Shown here piece by piece: positions 2,282 through 12,469 of a stretch of DNA of 36,450 bases. The position numbers and the translations under genes are program-made. The DNA comes from a virus: positions 1 to 36,450 of the IMG/VR virus record IMGVR_UViG_3300027987_000064; one strand, 5' to 3'. The notes beneath the pieces are model-generated. The model was not told the origin of the DNA, did no database searches, and saw only the letters and a list, made by a program, of their open reading frames with translations. How positions within the stretch are numbered: position 1 is the first letter of the stretch; each line of letters begins with the position of its first letter.

Positions 2282-2644
2282 ATGGAAGGCGAAACGAAAA
2301 GCAAGCTGCTGCGGGTGCTCATGGACGCAATCCCAATCGTGAAGGTGGTGTTGCGCACCAATGGCAGTCGTGTGCGGATACCGGATCACCTGCGCGCTTG
2401 CGACCTGCCCGTTACCGTGTTCGACATTGGCCACGGACTGGCTCGACCAATTCGCGACTTCGAATGCGACGCCAAGGGGATCCGTGGGACTCTCAGCTTC
2501 AACGGGCAACCGTTCTTCTGCGACGTCCCGTGGCCAGCAATCGTTGGTGCCATCGAGCCCAACGGAGGAGCGGCTATCCAGTTCGGCAGCAGTGAACAGC
2601 AATCGGAGCCAGAGCGGCACCGTGGTGGACTGCGGGTTGTTTGA
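2282..2644 (+). CDS. SspB-like ClpXP specificity-enhancing adaptor
   Basis: 120 residues from the ATG at 2282, chosen because GGAGG (2271-2275) sits 6 bases upstream. Longer in-frame starts would overlap the previous gene. The chain follows the SspB fold order: an N-terminal helix (KSKLLRVLMDAI), a strand, 'VRIPDHLR', a strand (VTVFDIG), then 'FECDAKGIRGTLSFNG', 'FFCDVPWPAIVGAI' and a final 'AIQF'. The last three correspond to the 'F.ARFgG....v.VP..AVlaIya' core of SspB. SspB delivers ssrA-tagged and other substrates to ClpXP. The short tail (residues about 105-120) is polar, but I do not see a clear copy of the hydrophobic ClpX-binding XB peptide. A phage copy could redirect host proteolysis. 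The function is inferred. Confidence 0.55.
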   Translation: MEGETKSKLLRVLMDAIPIVKVVLRTNGSRVRIPDHLRACDLPVTVFDIGHGLARPIRDFECDAKGIRGTLSFNGQPFFCDVPWPAIVGAIEPNGGAAIQFGSSEQQSEPERHRGGLRVV

Positions 2645-2670
2645 CTGACGAGTAATGGAGTCCGCTGACA

Positions 2671-2835
2671 ATGAATAAACCTGACTACACCGACTACTCG
2701 TGGCGCGCCTGGAGTAGACCGTTCACCATCCCAGCGAGCGAGTTCCGGGCCGATCAAACGCCGCAGCGCGACTACGCTGAGCAGCAGTTCTACGAAGCGG
2801 TCAAACGCATCGTCGACATCACCATGCCGCGATAG
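2671..2835 (+). CDS. Small ORF, possibly the 5' part of the J-domain gene
   Basis: 54 residues from ATG 2671 to TAG 2833-2835, acidic and aromatic at the start (KPDYTDYSWRAW). No family is recognised. Its interest lies in the next frame: the J-domain frame (-1 relative to this one) is open from 2781 and has no ATG, GTG or TTG ahead of its J domain. A -1 shift anywhere between 2781 and 2835 would join the two into one protein of about 136 residues. I see no classical slippery heptamer there. Alternatives are independent small genes or a sequencing indel. Confidence 0.4.
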   Translation: MNKPDYTDYSWRAWSRPFTIPASEFRADQTPQRDYAEQQFYEAVKRIVDITMPR

Positions 2836-3083
2836 GCGGCAAGGTTCAGTTCGTCGATCCGGGAGGCGCCCTGAAGACGCTGAAGGTTCCGATCCCCGTC
2901 GCGCCATGGGCAACAACGCTCGGGCTGACGCGGTCGGTCGGACTCACGGAGGACGACGTCAACAGCGCCTACCGCGCACAGGCGAAGCGCTGTCATCCGG
3001 ACGCCGGCGGTACCCCGGAGCAGTTCGTCGAGTTGGGAAAGGCCCGCGACGCGGCGCTGAAGAGCATCGGGAAGCAAGGCTGA
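2832..3083 (+). CDS. J-domain (DnaJ-like) protein without a normal start codon
   Basis: The frame ending at TGA 3081-3083 encodes a clear C-terminal J domain: 'AYRAQAKRCHPDAGG' followed by 'QFVELGKARDAAL'. It contains the HPD tripeptide that stimulates Hsp70 ATPase and the usual helix II and helix III pattern. The frame is open from 2781, but no ATG, GTG or TTG codon precedes the domain. An ATA at 2832 overlaps the upstream TAG (ATAG) and is used here only as a placeholder start. CTG codons occur at 2871 and 2880. Either the gene is expressed by a -1 frameshift from the ORF at 2671, it uses an unusual start, or the sequence has an indel. A phage J protein would recruit host DnaK, for example to remodel replication complexes. 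Confidence 0.6.
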   Translation: MGGKVQFVDPGGALKTLKVPIPVAPWATTLGLTRSVGLTEDDVNSAYRAQAKRCHPDAGGTPEQFVELGKARDAALKSIGKQG

Positions 3084-3098
3084 GATCTAGGAGGTTTC

Positions 3099-3269
3099 GT
3101 GGACGAGAGGAATAGACAGAAGCAGTGGCTCGAGCACCTCGACGCGAACGGTTTTCCGCGGGCCGAGTACTACGACAACGCGACGCCGTTCGATCGCTGG
3201 TGCGAACTTGCAACGTGGCACGAGCGGCTCAGGCGGAAGTGGTATGCGAGCCACAGGAGGTCCGCGTGA
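3099..3269 (+). CDS. Small hypothetical protein
   Basis: 56 residues from a GTG at 3099, supported by a strong GGAGG at 3090-3094 (4 bases upstream). It is rich in Trp, Arg and Glu (KQWLEHLDANG, FDRWCELATWHERLRRKWY) and is probably a small helical protein. No family is recognised. Small basic and aromatic ORFs at this place, just before a replication initiator, are common in phages. The choice of GTG rests on the ribosome-binding site. Confidence 0.5.
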   Translation: MDERNRQKQWLEHLDANGFPRAEYYDNATPFDRWCELATWHERLRRKWYASHRRSA

Positions 3270-3303
3270 GCCTCGAGAGCGACGCGGCGCCGGAGGTCAT
3301 GCA

Positions 3304-4470
3304 GTGAACTTCGAGGACGAACACTACGTGCGCGCGTATACGAGGGACACCAAGACGTGGCTTCGCTGGGGCTGGGAAGGGCAATGTGTGTTCTTGCTGG
3401 TGCTGCGCAAACTCGACAAGGCTGGCGTGTTGGATGACATCGACGACCCCGTCGAGGACATCGCCCTGCTCACTGGCCTTCCAGGCGAGGTGGTCGAGAT
3501 TGGTCTGCCGAAGGTGCTCAAGAGCGGCGCCTTGGAACTGGTTGGCAGCGTGCTGATCTGCCCCCGCTACATCGAGGGACAGACCGCTCGGAAGTCCGAC
3601 GCGGCACGAGCAAAGGAGTCCAGACAGCGCCGAAGTAACGCGGCGCGTGCGTCACAAATTGTGACAGATCGTCACGAAATAGGAAGCGATGTGACGTCGT
3701 GTGACGATCTCGGTCACGAACGGTCACCGTGTGACGAAGTCACGAAACGTGATGCGCGCGTCACAAATTGTGACGATCAGTCACAGAACGAAGCAAAACG
3801 TTCGACGGCCGACCAGCCGCGTCACTCAACGCAGAGCAACGCAGTGCAGAGCAACGCAGGAGCAGGAGATCCCCCCAGCCCCCCAAAGCCGACCAACCTC
3901 GACGAAGCGATCCGGATCCCACTCACCGAGCGGGCGCAAGCACTCAAGCTCAACCCATACTCGGCCGAATGGATCCAACCCCAACGCTGGCCCGAGACGT
4001 TGCGGGTCGTTGGCAGGCTCCACGAGCTCGCTGGGCTCGCTCCACCGAAGCTGGGCTCGTACCAGGCCGACAGCGCCGTCAGGGGCGCTGTGGAGCTGTT
4101 CGCGGCAGGCGTAACCGTCGAGGAGATCCTTGCGGCGCTGCCACAGGTCGTGAGCTCGGATTGGTGGCGTCAGAAGCGTCGCGACTTCGGTGCGGTGACG
4201 TTGACGGTGATTCGCAGGGCCACCCCCCAAAGGGCTACCGACCCCGACCCCGACCTCGCCAAGCGCCAAGCCCAAGACCGCGCCGACATCGAAGCCGACC
4301 GACAGCGGACCCGCGCAAAGGCGGCCGCTGGCGACACTGATAGCGTTTCAGGAACCAGATCGGCCCGCCGTGAGCGCGGAGCCAAAAACGCAACCACGGT
4401 GCCGCCAAGCGCCAGCAATGGCCATCCAAAAACCAGGTCACTAACCAAACTCGTGGAGGGGATCGGTTGA
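3304..4470 (+). CDS. Replication initiator / helicase-loader-like protein (lambda O-like position)
   Basis: 388 residues from GTG 3304, with GGAGG at 3292-3296. An upstream ATG at 3208 in the same frame would run through the preceding gene. Residues 1-100 look like a winged-helix domain (WGWEGQCVFLLVLRKLDKAGVL, then an 'IALLTGLP...VEIGLPKVLKSGALEL' helix-turn-helix), as in phage O/DnaD-like initiators. A charged linker of about 100 residues follows (about 101-215), and its DNA carries the iteron cluster at 3651-3825. A helical C-terminal domain (about 220-330) ends in a basic, disordered tail. The DnaB helicase gene starts at its stop codon (TGATG), which fits an initiator and helicase-loader pair. 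The family is inferred from architecture and context rather than from diagnostic residues. Confidence 0.6.
   Translation: MNFEDEHYVRAYTRDTKTWLRWGWEGQCVFLLVLRKLDKAGVLDDIDDPVEDIALLTGLPGEVVEIGLPKVLKSGALELVGSVLICPRYIEGQTARKSDAARAKESRQRRSNAARASQIVTDRHEIGSDVTSCDDLGHERSPCDEVTKRDARVTNCDDQSQNEAKRSTADQPRHSTQSNAVQSNAGAGDPPSPPKPTNLDEAIRIPLTERAQALKLNPYSAEWIQPQRWPETLRVVGRLHELAGLAPPKLGSYQADSAVRGAVELFAAGVTVEEILAALPQVVSSDWWRQKRRDFGAVTLTVIRRATPQRATDPDPDLAKRQAQDRADIEADRQRTRAKAAAGDTDSVSGTRSARRERGAKNATTVPPSASNGHPKTRSLTKLVEGIG
3651..3825 (+). repeat. Iteron cluster: candidate replication origin inside the initiator gene
   Basis: Twelve copies of GTCAC or its complement GTGAC lie between 3651 and 3784, starting at 3651, 3661, 3671, 3691, 3701, 3713, 3723, 3731, 3739, 3760, 3770 and 3780, with one more at 3821. 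Many are exactly 10 bp apart, so they face the same side of the helix. Two exact 15-bp palindromes, GTCACAAATTGTGAC, sit at 3651-3665 and 3760-3774. Each is followed by another GTCAC about 5-6 bp on. The cluster encodes the low-complexity linker of the initiator, as the lambda ori does inside gene O. No strongly AT-rich unwinding element is evident beside it. Confidence 0.7.
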
Positions 4471-5867
4471 TGTCCGGGATGCCAACCATCGCAGACCTGG
4501 ATGCAGAGCGCGCCCTCCTAGGTGAATTGCTGAGCCGCCCGGAACAGCTCGCCGACGCGATGGACGTGCTCGACCCCGCAGACTTCTTCGGGGTCGCCAA
4601 CCGCACGACGTACGCGGCGATCCTCGATGTCGATGCGAGCGGCGAGAGCATCGACCTCGTTTCGGTGATGCGCCGGATTCGACAGCTGGGGCGCGATAGC
4701 GAAATCTCAAGCTCTGACCTCGTTGAGTTCACGAACGCACCCGCAATCGCGTCGGTGTCCGAGGTCGCAAAGGTCGTCAGGAGCAAGGCCAGGCACCGCC
4801 GCATGCTCTCTGGCCTCGAGCGATTGGTCGCCACTGGGCGCGACGGCAGAGTCGACTCGGACGAGTGGATCGAGCAGGTCGAGCAGGTCGTGTTTGAACT
4901 CGCCGCAAGCGATGACCCGAGCCCGACGATCGAATTCTCGGAGCTGATCGACCAAAGCCTCAGCACGGTGCGTGACCGCGGCGCCGGTGCAACCGACTAC
5001 ATTCCGACCGCGCTCGCGACGGTGAATCGGTACGTGCACGGTTGGGAGCCAGGTTTGCCGCACATCGTTTCGGCTCGCCCCGGGCTCGGGAAGACGGCAT
5101 TCGCGCTGCAGGAGTTGCGCAACGTCGCGGGGCGCGGGTTCGGCGCGGTGATGTTCTCGCTCGAGATGCCGAAGCTGAAGCTGTCGATTCGAATGCTTTC
5201 GCAGGAGGCTCGAGTCGACAACGCGAAGCTGATGACCGGAAAGCTCGAAGGCAACGACTGGGCCGACATGGGCGAAGCCGCCGAGGCGCTCGGCAAGCTC
5301 CCCATCTCGATCGTTGACGATGGCTCGATGACCGTCGCGAAGCTGCGAGCGAAGTTCCGTCGTGAGGTCATCCGACTACGCCGCAAGCACGGTGACGACC
5401 TGAAAGTGAAGCTCGTGATCGTGGACTACATCCAGCTCATGAGCGGAAGTGGCGCGAACCGGGATCAGGAGATTGGCTCCGTTTCGAGGGACCTGCGAGC
5501 TTTCGCAAAGGAGTTCAACGTCGCGCTGATCGAGCTATCGCAGAACAACCGAGAGGGGGCGAAGAAGAACGACCGGCCGCAACTCACCGACCTTCGGGAA
5601 AGCGGCTCGCTCGAGCAGGACGCCGCCAAGGTGTTGTTCCTATACAACCCCACGGCGAACAAGCCGCCAGACCAGCAGGAGGCAAAGCGCATCGTCATCG
5701 TTGCGAAGAACCGCGACGGCGGCGGCACCGGCGACGCATGGTGCAAGTTCGACGGACCAACTACTCGGTTCTTCGTTCCTGCGCATGAATCACACGAATG
5801 GCTGGACGGCGTAAGCGAAGGGCTGCCGCCTCCAACACACTGGAGCGACGATGACTTTGGAGAGTAA
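4470..5867 (+). CDS. dnaB: Replicative DNA helicase, DnaB family
   Basis: 465 residues from ATG 4470, which overlaps the upstream stop (TGATG). GGAGGGG at 4455-4461 is the ribosome site. The N-terminal DnaB domain is about residues 5-105 (DLDAERALLGELL... ADFFGVANRTTYAAI). The RecA-like core has Walker A ARPGLGKTA near residue 204, an 'SLEM' motif, Walker B VIVDYIQLM near residue 318, and the signature LSQNNR...RPQLTDLRESG.LEQDA near residues 355-385. This is a full-length hexameric 5'-3' helicase that unwinds the phage fork. It lies directly after the initiator gene, which presumably loads it. Confidence 0.95.
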   Translation: MSGMPTIADLDAERALLGELLSRPEQLADAMDVLDPADFFGVANRTTYAAILDVDASGESIDLVSVMRRIRQLGRDSEISSSDLVEFTNAPAIASVSEVAKVVRSKARHRRMLSGLERLVATGRDGRVDSDEWIEQVEQVVFELAASDDPSPTIEFSELIDQSLSTVRDRGAGATDYIPTALATVNRYVHGWEPGLPHIVSARPGLGKTAFALQELRNVAGRGFGAVMFSLEMPKLKLSIRMLSQEARVDNAKLMTGKLEGNDWADMGEAAEALGKLPISIVDDGSMTVAKLRAKFRREVIRLRRKHGDDLKVKLVIVDYIQLMSGSGANRDQEIGSVSRDLRAFAKEFNVALIELSQNNREGAKKNDRPQLTDLRESGSLEQDAAKVLFLYNPTANKPPDQQEAKRIVIVAKNRDGGGTGDAWCKFDGPTTRFFVPAHESHEWLDGVSEGLPPPTHWSDDDFGE

Positions 5868-5897
5868 CCCGAAGCACTGGCAAGAAGGAGACGAGTG

Positions 5898-6749
5898 ATG
5901 GCAAGAATCGGAACGGCACCAATCAAACCAACGGTCATCGAGGGGTTCGTGGGTCAGCTGCGAACCAACGGAAGCTGGGAGGTTGGAGAGTACACCTTCG
6001 CAGCGAAAGATCGCGACGTACATTCCGTGTTCGTCAAAGCAATCGAGGAAGGATTCAACGTTTCTGGTATGCCCAGGGCGCCGCTCGGCTCCACCATGCT
6101 GGTGTGTGGCGTTCGGTTTGTTCTGCAAGACGAGAACTCGAGACAGGTGCGTTGCCCGGACACTGGCAAGGTGCGGCTGTTAGAGCGCCTTGAAGAAGAC
6201 TGGCGCAGCGAGCAAGATGGTCGCGCCCTCATTTGGAATATCGGCAAAGGATGGTCGTTCCCCAAGAGCCTCTCAGATGTGCCTAAGTGGGAAATGACAG
6301 CTCTAGCAGCGGTATCCAAATCGAATGGGCCAGCCGCAGTAGCCTCGCAGCTGGGCCAATCCCAGTCCGTGCAGTACTGCGACGAGACCGCGGAGTATGA
6401 ACAATCGGGGCTCGAAAGCATCGCCGAGCGGACGACAGCGAAAGAGAAGGCCCCAGGCGAAACCGACGAAGAGTTCAGGGGGCGTGTGCGGCGCACTCTC
6501 TCGATCGAGCGTTGCGCAGCCTGCAACGAGCCATTCGGTTCCTTCCGCAAGCCACACTCCGGAAAGGTGCGCGGTGAGCCGGCACAAATCTGCGGCGACT
6601 GCATCGGCACGCATTGTCGCTACCCGGTTCAGGAGCGCGCTTCGAAGCGGTTCACAGCCGACACGCCGCCAGGGCCCAGCACAACTGCCGCGACCAAGTG
6701 GCACAACCAGCACACGAGCGTGGACAGCACGCCGGGATGGGAGGAGTGA
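5898..6749 (+). CDS. Unknown protein with C-terminal zinc-binding cysteines
   Basis: 283 residues. ATG 5898 is preferred because AGGAG (5886-5890) is 7 bases upstream, and GTG 5895 is an alternative. No family is recognised. The N-terminal 120 residues look folded and beta-rich (IEGFVGQLRTNGSWEVGEYTF, STMLVCGVRFVL). The middle is charged. Residues about 215-250 hold CAAC, then CGDC some 25 residues later, a CxxC-x(n)-CxxC zinc ribbon. The gene sits between dnaB and a run of small genes with overlapping stop and start codons. A DNA- or RNA-binding role is possible but unproven. Confidence 0.6.
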   Translation: MARIGTAPIKPTVIEGFVGQLRTNGSWEVGEYTFAAKDRDVHSVFVKAIEEGFNVSGMPRAPLGSTMLVCGVRFVLQDENSRQVRCPDTGKVRLLERLEEDWRSEQDGRALIWNIGKGWSFPKSLSDVPKWEMTALAAVSKSNGPAAVASQLGQSQSVQYCDETAEYEQSGLESIAERTTAKEKAPGETDEEFRGRVRRTLSIERCAACNEPFGSFRKPHSGKVRGEPAQICGDCIGTHCRYPVQERASKRFTADTPPGPSTTAATKWHNQHTSVDSTPGWEE

Positions 6750-8671: not shown

Positions 8672-10696
8672 ATGAAAGCGACGAGAGTGTACAAGTACGG
8701 TTGCAGGCCGGAGATAACGGAGCAACTGCTCGACCAATTGAAGGCAGCGCGCGAACTGCGAACCGAGTTGGTCAACATCGAGAACAGGCGAATGGAGGAG
8801 TTCCTCGCATTGCGTTCGGTATCGTGCCCGGGGCTGGCTGAGCTTGAGGAGCAAAACGAATCGCTAAACGAGTGCATCGAAGACGTGGTAAAGCGCATAT
8901 CTTACGCCAAGAAGAGCGAGCGCCGGAAGCACCCGCTACAGGCTGAGTTGAAAGCGCTGAAAGCCGAGCGCAAACCTGTCTACGAAGCCGTGAAAGCCGA
9001 GCGCGAGAAGTTCTCGGAGCTCCTGGGTCCACACGACAAGGCATTGGCTTTGCTGAAGGATACCGCATGTGCCGCGGCTGGTTTTCCAACCAAGAAAGGC
9101 ATGAAGCGCTATTCCGATGACGGCAAACAGATGGGAGCCCACCTACTGGGTAGTCTCAGCAGAGAAGCTCTGGATGAGATGCTTGCACGCAAGGATGTGC
9201 CGACCGAGTGGAAAACAGCGAAGAACATCGACAACGAAGCAAAGCGCTCATCCAAGGCGGCCCTGAAGGCGACTCGTTGCACCAGCGGGACGAAGTTCAT
9301 GATTCACAACGACGTCATTGCTGCAGCGAAGAAGTCGAAGGGACGAACGCGGCTCAAGACGCGCTACGATCGCGAGTCGGTCGCGCTGGACATCAAGTCG
9401 CTTAGGCTGAGCGACGTTGCTAACGGAGGCTCGCCACTGCTCAGGTTCGTGAACGAGTCGACCGCATCGCACGGCAGGGTATTCGTCGACTGCATCGTGC
9501 GATTCGGCGTTCTACCCGAGCCGTTCGTTGTTGGAATGAGCGTGCTCATGCATCGGCCTCTCCCAGCCGACTCTGACATTCGCTCAGTTCGACTGTGTCG
9601 CGAGCGCATTGGGCGGCGCGAGCGGTGGACGATACAGTTCACCGTGCTGACTGATGAGCCGAACCAGAGGCGTGTCCCGAAGGGAGGAACGATCGCGATC
9701 AACATCGGTTGGCGAGTTAGAAGCGGCAAAGCTGCTATGGGTGCGCAGTTCGGAAAGGTGTCCGACATCGGCGATAAGCATGTGCGGGTTGGCGTGGCCA
9801 TCGACGACGACGGCAATGTGCGCGAGCTCACTCTTCCGGCGCGGATGCGCAGAAGGGAAGAATTCATCCGGTCGCTTCAGTCGGCGTCAGACAAGTTGTT
9901 CGATTCCGCCTTGTCCCAGTTTCGGGAGATCCGAAAGGCGCACCCTGAGTTGCTCGACTTCGAACTGGCTATTCCAGGTCGCGAGCCGGTAACACTGCTG
10001 AAGAAGACCATTCAGTGCGACAAGTGGCGCAGTCACAAGAAGCTGCTGTTCGCCATTCGTGATCTCGCGAACCACATGGGAATCGATGGGCGCCCGATCT
10101 ACGCAGAGTGGAAGAAGCAGCGCCTAGCAGCGAAGATCGACCTGTTCGCTACACTGGAGGAAACGCGCGAGTGGTTGAGCGAGAATGGCGAGTCTGAGCC
10201 TCTGCGCCAAGAGGTGATCTGGCTGTTGTTCTGGATGCGCAAATGCTACCACCTCGACTCGATGGCGCGTGACCTGATCGCCAAGACCACGGGGTGGCGT
10301 CGGGAGATATTCCGGATCTGGGCGGCGCAGTTCGCTGCAGCATACCAGACACTGGTCACCTCCGATGAGAAGTACAAGGAGCTGAAGGAAAAGAAGCCGA
10401 AGGAGCAAGACTTCGAAGGCCCGCAAGAGCAGAAGGCGCGAGCGAACCAGCACAAGGCGTCACCGGGTCTGTTGCGCTCGATACTCCGAGACGCGTTTGG
10501 TCAACGCTCCATCGTTGTGTCTGCATCCGACGTCACCAAGTTACACTATGACTGTGGGTGTGAGCTTTACGGCGACAGAAAGAAGAATGTGGCGCTTGCG
10601 TGTGAACGCGACGGCTCATATCATGACCAGGACGAAAACGCGGCACGTAACATGCTGCGAGCGGTCCTTGAAAAACGTAGCGAGGTAGCGGCCTGA
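8672..10696 (+). CDS. Compact Cas12-like (type V) effector with substituted RuvC-I and RuvC-II residues
   Basis: 674 residues. ATG 8672 has AAGGAG at 8659-8664 and GGAGG directly before it. The N-terminal 200 residues are helical and highly charged (REC-like). About residues 300-335 (IRSVRLCRERIG.RERWTIQFTV) match the WED strands that precede RuvC in TnpB/Cas12 proteins. RuvC-I is GTIAINIGWR, with N344 where the family has catalytic Asp. The RuvC-II position reads TLVTSDEKYKEL, with S564 where Glu is expected and D565/E566 beside it. RuvC-III is intact: DQDENAARNML (D652, D654). The zinc ribbon is reduced to C628-G-C630 and C644-x-x-D647. The CRISPR array starts 61 bases after the stop, and no adaptation genes are seen. 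I infer a crRNA-guided DNA binder with lost or weak cleavage. The subtype (CasPhi-like, Cas12m-like or new) cannot be settled here. Confidence 0.85.
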   Translation: MKATRVYKYGCRPEITEQLLDQLKAARELRTELVNIENRRMEEFLALRSVSCPGLAELEEQNESLNECIEDVVKRISYAKKSERRKHPLQAELKALKAERKPVYEAVKAEREKFSELLGPHDKALALLKDTACAAAGFPTKKGMKRYSDDGKQMGAHLLGSLSREALDEMLARKDVPTEWKTAKNIDNEAKRSSKAALKATRCTSGTKFMIHNDVIAAAKKSKGRTRLKTRYDRESVALDIKSLRLSDVANGGSPLLRFVNESTASHGRVFVDCIVRFGVLPEPFVVGMSVLMHRPLPADSDIRSVRLCRERIGRRERWTIQFTVLTDEPNQRRVPKGGTIAINIGWRVRSGKAAMGAQFGKVSDIGDKHVRVGVAIDDDGNVRELTLPARMRRREEFIRSLQSASDKLFDSALSQFREIRKAHPELLDFELAIPGREPVTLLKKTIQCDKWRSHKKLLFAIRDLANHMGIDGRPIYAEWKKQRLAAKIDLFATLEETREWLSENGESEPLRQEVIWLLFWMRKCYHLDSMARDLIAKTTGWRREIFRIWAAQFAAAYQTLVTSDEKYKELKEKKPKEQDFEGPQEQKARANQHKASPGLLRSILRDAFGQRSIVVSASDVTKLHYDCGCELYGDRKKNVALACERDGSYHDQDENAARNMLRAVLEKRSEVAA

Positions 10697-10743: not shown

Positions 10744-10757
10744 ATCCTCGGTGGTGT

Positions 10758-11224
10758 ATTCAAAAAGGTAGCGGATCGCCTAAAGAGTCCGACTTGCGTG
10801 GTTGTTACCTACTACCCGGGGGACTCGGATTCAAAAAGGTAGCGGATCGCCTAAAGAGTCCGACATACACGGCGCTGTGTTGGAGGTTTGCGTTGCGGAG
10901 ATTCAAAAAGGTAGCGGATCGCCTAAAGAGTCCGACTTCGCGGTCCGCGCGTTGGCCTCGGCGTGCCCGCGGATTCAAAAAGGTAGCGGATCGCCTAAAG
11001 AGTCCGACTTGAGGCGTCAGATGACGACGTTTCGGACGCGCCCGATTCAAAAAGGTAGCGGATCGCCTAAAGAGTCCGACCGAACGAGCGAGTCGACATC
11101 GTGGTCAATGGGCATATTCAAGAAGGTAGCGGATCGCCTAAAGAGTCCGACGTCGATGCCTACGCCCCGGACGAAGCCGTTGCGCGGATTCAAAAAGGTA
11201 GCGAGGCGCCTAAAGACTTTCGAC
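10758..11224 (+). CRISPR. Phage-borne CRISPR array, 7 repeats and 6 spacers
   Basis: Repeats of 36 bp start at 10758, 10829, 10901, 10973, 11045 and 11116. A degenerate 37-bp last copy is at 11188-11224. Repeats 1-5 are identical, and repeat 6 has one A-to-G change at position 7. Spacers are 10794-10828 (35 bp), 10865-10900 (36), 10937-10972 (36), 11009-11044 (36), 11081-11115 (35) and 11152-11187 (36), all different. The repeat begins ATTCAAAAAGGTAGC and ends AAAGAGTCCGAC. Its 3' half can fold as CGGAT/GTCCG (positions 15-19 with 30-34) around a 10-base loop, leaving a 3' AC. A hairpin just before the spacer fits the 5' handle of type V crRNAs read on the + strand. Decay of the last repeat puts the leader end next to the effector gene. 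Confidence 0.95.
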
Positions 11225-11242
11225 AAGCCAAAGGAGCAAAGG

Positions 11243-12469
11243 ATGGAACTACGAGACTACCAAGCAAGAGCGGTCGCTGAAGTACGAGCCAAGTGGGCAG
11301 CGGGCGCAAAGCACGTTCTGCTTGTCGCGCCGACCGCTTCTGGCAAGACCGAGATGGCGCAAGCGGCAGTTGGAAAGGCGCCGCAGTGTTGGCTCGTGCA
11401 CACGCGCGACTTGCTCGATCAGACGGCAAAGCGTCTGCGTGAGGCAACGGGTCAGCCGGTAAACGTGATCGCTGGAGGTGTAGAGCCGACGAACGGTGCG
11501 CGAATTCATGTCGCAATGGTGCAGTCGTTGTTCGGGCGAGAAGTGCCAGAAGTGAACTACCTCATTCCCGACGAATGCCATCACTACCGGGCCGACGAGT
11601 GGGAGCTTGCCCTGTATGCATTCAAGACTGCGAAACGCCTTGGGCTAACGGCCACGCCAGCGCGCTACGACAACAGGCCACTGGGCGACGTCTTCGACGA
11701 GCTTGTGGTTGCGGCGCAGATCCAGGATCTGGTTGAGCGCGGGTATCTTATGAAGGTCGATCTGCTACGCGCTCCGGAGCCGCTCAAGGGAATGGCTGCG
11801 CTGGATGCCGTGGAAGCATACATGCGCTACGCAAACGGAACGAAGGCATTCGGGTACCTGCCGTCAGTCGACATGTGCCAAGACGCCGCTCGGCGATTCC
11901 GAGAGAACGGCGTAAGCGCGAAGGTCATCGCCTACAACACCGGCGACAGCGAGCGACGCAAAGCAATGGGAGAGTTTGCAGCCGGAGAGGTGCGTGTGTT
12001 GCTCTGTCACACGACACTGACGGAGGGCATCGATGTACCGGACGCTGAGACCTGCATCCTTGGAAAGTCCTATCACCACGTCGGGCAGATGATGCAGGCG
12101 ACCGGGCGCATCATGCGTACGTCTCCGAGCAAGACGCGGGCGCTTGTGCTTGACCTCGTTGGTTGCACGCATGTTCTCGGGCATCCGCAGATCCCTCGAC
12201 TGTTCTCGCTGACAGGTGAGGCGATTAGCACACCAACCACCAACCCTGAGGCCGTTGGAAAGGAGCGCAATCCGATGCAGTGGAGCGTCGGAAACATCGA
12301 CCTGCAGGAGTTCGAGATTGTATCTGTCGGCGCCGAGGTCGCGAGAGTTCCGAGCGAAGTCATGAAGGAGCGCTGGAACGACCTGCTTGGGCTCGTGAAG
12401 CTCCGGAAGATGCGACGGTGCGAGGCATCAGCGCAATTTCACGCGGAGTACGGCCTGTGGCCAGCCTGA
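11243..12469 (+). CDS. SF2 DEAD/DEAH-box (type III restriction/RadD-like) helicase
   Basis: 408 residues from ATG 11243, with AAGGAG at 11231-11236. The frame stays open upstream through the whole CRISPR array because most units are 72 bp, so longer starts are artefacts. The motifs are complete: Q-like RDYQARAV at the N-terminus, Walker A APTASGKT near residue 32, DECHH at 110-114, LTATP at about 135, TEGIDVP in domain 2, and QATGRIMRT near 287. It is an ATP-dependent nucleic-acid translocase of the kind phages use in replication or recombination. It follows the array with only 18 bases between. A link to the Cas12-like effector is possible but unsupported beyond position. Confidence 0.88.
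   Translation: MELRDYQARAVAEVRAKWAAGAKHVLLVAPTASGKTEMAQAAVGKAPQCWLVHTRDLLDQTAKRLREATGQPVNVIAGGVEPTNGARIHVAMVQSLFGREVPEVNYLIPDECHHYRADEWELALYAFKTAKRLGLTATPARYDNRPLGDVFDELVVAAQIQDLVERGYLMKVDLLRAPEPLKGMAALDAVEAYMRYANGTKAFGYLPSVDMCQDAARRFRENGVSAKVIAYNTGDSERRKAMGEFAAGEVRVLLCHTTLTEGIDVPDAETCILGKSYHHVGQMMQATGRIMRTSPSKTRALVLDLVGCTHVLGHPQIPRLFSLTGEAISTPTTNPEAVGKERNPMQWSVGNIDLQEFEIVSVGAEVARVPSEVMKERWNDLLGLVKLRKMRRCEASAQFHAEYGLWPA

Follow-up and report, generated by a model that had tools for sequence, protein, structure and literature searches.

In lambda and the Stx phages, the replication origin lies within gene O, and silent mutations of its iterons abolish origin function (PMC7466680); lambda has four long iterons and the Stx phages six (about 18 bp each, e.g. 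ATCCCTCAAAACGAGGGA), placed beside an AT-rich tract. The origin oriL of SPP1 lies in gene 38 (PMC6316719). For P1, an oriL is postulated within repL, where synonymous base changes have been used to study it (PMC9948254). Here, we describe a phage gene in which short GTCAC/GTGAC words (hereafter GTSAC) recur about once per helical turn of the DNA, and we consider it highly probable that these words are the initiator-binding iterons of a replication origin embedded in its own initiator gene.

The window, by which we mean the whole stretch of DNA analysed, is an entire contig of 36,450 bp within a 10.4 Mb bacterial assembly; it carries phage terminase, tape-measure and replication genes, and the features discussed below are collected in Table 1. 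The GTG start of the initiator gene agrees with the family alignment, in which M1 is nearly invariant, and its immediate 3′ neighbour is the gene for the DnaB-type helicase. The window protein has clear homologues, and several of these give PHROG matches to replication-initiation families; the window protein itself gives no Pfam or PHROG match, the Phage_rep_org_N, HTH_36, DUF1376 and O-like models included. In the AlphaFold2 model, the pLDDT is mostly >90 over residues 21–90, and phage replisome organisers and replication initiators are among the best matches of the N-terminal winged helix in the viral structure library BFVD: C9WB95, a replisome organiser N-terminal domain (E 8e-3, probability 1.00), A0A8S5TAU7, a replication initiator, and DUF1376 proteins. 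The N-terminal part, therefore, has by BFVD the winged-helix fold of phage replisome organisers, the single match with E <0.001 being to an unnamed protein; a fold search of the PDB returned generic winged helices alone, none at E <=0.001. Further along the model, a helix extends up to residue 126, and residues 128–141 and 143–189 are disordered (pLDDT <50) save for a one-residue break; the array encodes residues from about 116 to 161, that is, the end of the helix and then disorder.

Table 1. Positions of the array, its component repeats and the surrounding genes in the window
Feature	Position	Strand	Remarks
Replication initiator gene	3304..4470	+	388 aa, GTG start; homologues, AlphaFold2 N-terminal winged helix, DnaB next
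N-terminal winged-helix domain, coding part	3304..3588	+	Residues 1–95; pLDDT, BFVD matches
Core array of 12 GTCAC/GTGAC units, spaced by about a helical turn	3651..3784		Proposed initiator-binding iterons
Outlying 13th GTCAC unit	3821..3825		
First 15-bp dyad GTCACAAATTGTGAC	3651..3665		Two opposed units
Second 15-bp dyad GTCACAAATTGTGAC	3760..3774		Second copy
29-nt direct repeat	3637..3665 / 3746..3774	+	Copies 86% identical; each contains GTCACAAATTGTGAC
AT-rich 40-mer	3763..3802		60% AT, overlaps 3′ end of array; weak candidate unwinding region
DnaB-type replicative helicase gene	4473..5867	+	Pfam DnaB_C E 1.1e-64 and DnaB N-terminal domain; phrog_19

Several neighbouring features were also recorded. 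A short ORF just 5′ of the initiator (2907–3085) scores 26.7 bits for a DnaJ domain, against a Pfam cut-off of 27.8 bits. The 674-residue protein encoded at 8672–10696 matches the PADLOC models for Cas12f and Cas12u1 and Cas12m chains in the PDB, and its gene is followed by a CRISPR-like array (10751–11227; seven copies at 71–72 bp steps), the two together looking like a miniature type V CRISPR system carried by the phage. Directly 3′ of this lies a ResIII/DEAD-type helicase (about 11150–12469); as its mechanical ORF (10802–12469) spans the CRISPR-like array, the gene probably begins some way inside this ORF. The assembly has another prophage-like contig (G000, contig C468), on which the gene at 1006–1857 (L002) encodes a protein with a different N-terminal part and a C-terminal region 37% identical to residues 205–341 of the window initiator, and carries no GTSAC array; the initiators thus look modular.

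Units of the array start at positions 3651, 3661, 3671, 3691, 3701, 3713, 3723, 3731, 3739, 3760, 3770 and 3780, with the outlier at 3821. The 12 core units fall within 134 bp, and six of their 11 spacings are exactly 10 bp, the others being 20, 12, 8, 8 and 21 bp. The densest 135-bp stretch elsewhere in the 36.4 kb holds four units; for the background of 0.335 units per 135 bp, the Poisson probability of finding at least 12 is about 3e-15. Both copies of GTCACAAATTGTGAC are perfect dyads save for the central base, with the opposed units flanking AAATT. A preliminary description of this DNA had drawn attention to 12 pentamers in 134 bp, many at 10-bp steps, and to two identical 15-bp palindromes, placing the cluster in the linker-coding part of an initiator gene. 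The unit count and the Poisson background confirm the first point and the copies of GTCACAAATTGTGAC the second; the placement is upheld by homologues with PHROG initiation matches, by the winged helix and by the adjacent DnaB gene. A CRP-type site was considered by eye and dropped, the spacing of TGTGA...TCAC being wrong.

AT content and GC skew provide no independent mark of an origin. The array itself is relatively AT-rich, and the 40-mer at its 3′ end is one of the two AT-richest within 2500–6000; the rise in the window is modest there, with no distinct tract, and across the family the AT content exceeds the locus average by only about 6 points in the 30 bp 3′ of the array. No clear AT-rich unwinding element was found in the window or the family loci, and no turn in the GC skew coincides with the array.

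Queried with the window protein, neither viral contigs nor annotated phages gave a relative; it was host genomes and the DNA pattern that led to relatives. Homologues occur in two genomes from the same host family and, in each, the linker has GTSAC words at 10-bp steps. Alignment of the N-terminal region yielded a peptide motif that is independent of the array, and nearly all of the family genes were fetched by this motif alone. At least four GTSAC units are present in the linker of 69 of the 73 non-redundant family genes (window gene included); the four exceptions comprise truncated genes (L472 and L544) and two genes that use other words, GTWAC in L478 and GTGTC in L506, at about the same spacing as judged by eye. 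The modal spacing in the family is 10 bp (291 consecutive cases), and the histogram of pair distances, from which the antiphase spacing was also read, has a peak at each helical turn with troughs between, the best period being 10.25 bp. In the window and in the family alike, then, the initiator gene contains short repeated DNA sites, and the array persists in relatives whose N-terminal regions share 28–54% identity with that of the window protein. A DnaB gene lies directly 3′ or within about 1.1 kb at 44 of 80 family loci, and IstB-like or G39P-like genes are seen at a few of the rest. The preliminary description had proposed just such a comparison, with a lack of conserved GTCAC spacing among relatives to count against its reading: no such lack emerged in the 73 genes, and it is the DNA word and its helical phasing that are conserved, not the reading frame or the residues.

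The pattern extends well beyond this family. Four GTSAC words at 10-bp steps occur at no fewer than 120 loci in viral contigs, and at 11-bp steps in at least 120 viral contigs; given that the 11-bp arrays are also frequent, the phasing follows the helical turn and is not fixed at 10 bp. Among the matches listed, this word-only search of viral contigs led mostly to phage initiation genes of many families, and the array ORFs listed match the PHROG replication initiation, O-like, primosomal and DnaD-like loader families, and Phage_rep_org_N, HTH_36 and DnaT in Pfam. With the array masked, 144 of 179 array ORFs fall into one single-linkage homology group, although single linkage may join families loosely. 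The generality of the pattern rests largely on loci selected by the pattern, the window family and a second family, of the QPNYYAIIPA type, being the only ones sampled regardless of the array. Within this second family, a subclade carries 11-bp arrays, and a member of the family has switched to GTCAA. The related initiators of E. coli Rac (ydaU) and epsilon15 lack a GTSAC array. In annotated phages of E. coli, Pseudomonas and Aeromonas (L549, which is gene O of phage vB_EcoS-813R8, L551 and L552), the initiator gene contains two GTSAC arrays, one in the part coding for the winged helix and one in the linker (2635–2666 and 2895–2936 in L549).

As a control, the word GASTC at 10-bp steps was found in 26 viral contigs in a completed scan, versus at least 120 for GTSAC; this is not a clean null, as L209, L213 and L220 are initiator-like and L196 is also a GTSAC match. 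The GASTC array of L209 lies in a gene for a replication-initiation protein (PHROG), and, on inspection by eye, L213 and L220 resemble initiators; the presence of GASTC in at least one initiator gene suggests that the word in use differs between lineages. In bacterial genomes, the GTSAC pattern often falls on apparent simple tandem repeats, and it is mainly in viral contigs that it points to initiators.

The initiator, or some other protein of the phage, might bind the array not as an origin but as an autoregulatory operator or a copy-control site. Sites within a gene could indeed repress it, and our evidence is drawn from sequence; nevertheless, the linker that holds the array is a long way from the promoter region, a location that control of expression would not need, and the array recurs in initiator genes across many families, in the manner of known embedded origins, such that we regard this alternative as very unlikely. 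We think it very unlikely, too, that the reader is a host protein common to many bacteria, such as a nucleoid or replication factor. This would account for the same word appearing in several families of initiator and in phages whose hosts differ widely, but the word changes within the window family while the array is kept, as in L478 and L506, and the switch to GTCAA in the second family is a better fit to a phage-encoded reader.

Selection on this stretch acts on the DNA rather than the protein. The 10-bp steps shift the word through the reading frames: in the family, GTCAC is distributed 115, 77 and 110 across the three frames, and GTGAC 58, 54 and 0, where the empty frame is the one that creates a TGA stop. 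When synonymous codons were permuted, a null in which every gene retains its protein and its codon usage while dinucleotide context is not kept, 317 ± 9 units were expected in the family against 590 observed, and 28 ± 4 ten-bp pairs against 292; for the window gene alone, the permuted mean was 7.2 units (maximum 12 in 200 trials) versus 13 observed, with 3.0 helically spaced pairs (maximum 9) versus 11. Because the permutation leaves the protein unchanged and yet lowers the number of units and removes their phasing, the words are maintained as DNA, and the array is a clear case of a DNA signal selected inside a coding region. The earlier suggestion that the DNA, rather than the low-complexity protein, is under selection is, thus, supported by both frame use and the codon-permutation null. 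It follows that there is next to no room for a functional V-T / S-H / x-S linker repeat of which the DNA regularity would be a by-product: the translated linkers look alike (e.g. VT..H..S..VT), but the stop-free frames are used about equally, so that the residues differ between units, and synonymous permutation abolishes most of the signal. A functionless microsatellite expansion, as the many tandem-repeat-like matches in bacterial genomes might suggest, is contradicted by the unit-to-unit differences in the family spacers, the absence of consensus beyond the pentamer and the conservation of the array in distant relatives, and can hardly be entertained.

Judged from its sequence, then, the array most likely marks the start site of phage replication, and the logic of lambda ori in gene O is the best-supported mechanism. 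The winged-helix domains of the initiator would settle on GTSAC words spaced by roughly a turn of the helix, several molecules thereby aligning on one face of the DNA; the C-terminal part of the initiator would bring in the DnaB helicase encoded by the next gene, and the DNA would be opened at some point near the array. The disordered linker is presumably the part of the gene able to tolerate such a DNA signal. We found no description of an iteron class of phased pentamers in the open-licence literature; the origin-in-initiator arrangement is already known, and the difference lies in the iteron itself, which takes the form of a pentamer with almost two-fold symmetry at each helical turn.

A broader proposal is that GTSAC per helical turn represents a widespread, undescribed origin code of tailed phages, common to many initiator families and hosts and read by a row of winged helices on one face of the DNA, in which lineages swap the word (GTWAC, GTGTC, GTCAA or GASTC) and keep the phasing, and from which unknown origins could be located from sequence; we see this as evenly balanced between being right and wrong. 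To our knowledge, most phages have replication origins that are still to be located. If the array is what it seems to be, a search for phased words would mark both origin and initiator where the replication genes are otherwise unrecognisable, and the natural switches of word would provide material for studies of initiator–origin co-evolution.

Comparison with described systems places the locus among several relatives in kind. The Phage_rep_org_N, HTH_36, DnaT-type, DUF1376 and PHROG replication initiation or O-like proteins share with the window initiator an N-terminal winged helix, a low-complexity linker and a nearby helicase or loader gene, and many members of these families carry a GTSAC array, although the window protein has no sequence match to any of them. 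The oriL of P1 is likewise a postulated origin in an initiator gene, but its key feature is an AT-rich region rather than phased pentamers. SPP1 resembles the window in having direct repeats for the origin-binding protein inside its own gene (binding being predicted here) and a phage DnaB-type helicase; it differs in its AT-rich unwinding element, separate loader gp39 and second origin oriR, none of which was identified in the window. The lambda and Stx origins have a few long iterons beside an AT-rich tract, and their protein P works with the host helicase, whereas here there are 12–13 pentamers about 10 bp apart, one turn of the helix, with no distinct tract, and DnaB is encoded by the phage. 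In common with lambda and Stx, however, the proposed origin lies inside the initiator gene, with repeated initiator sites in mid-gene and replication genes adjacent, and the same stretch is constrained as both DNA and protein.
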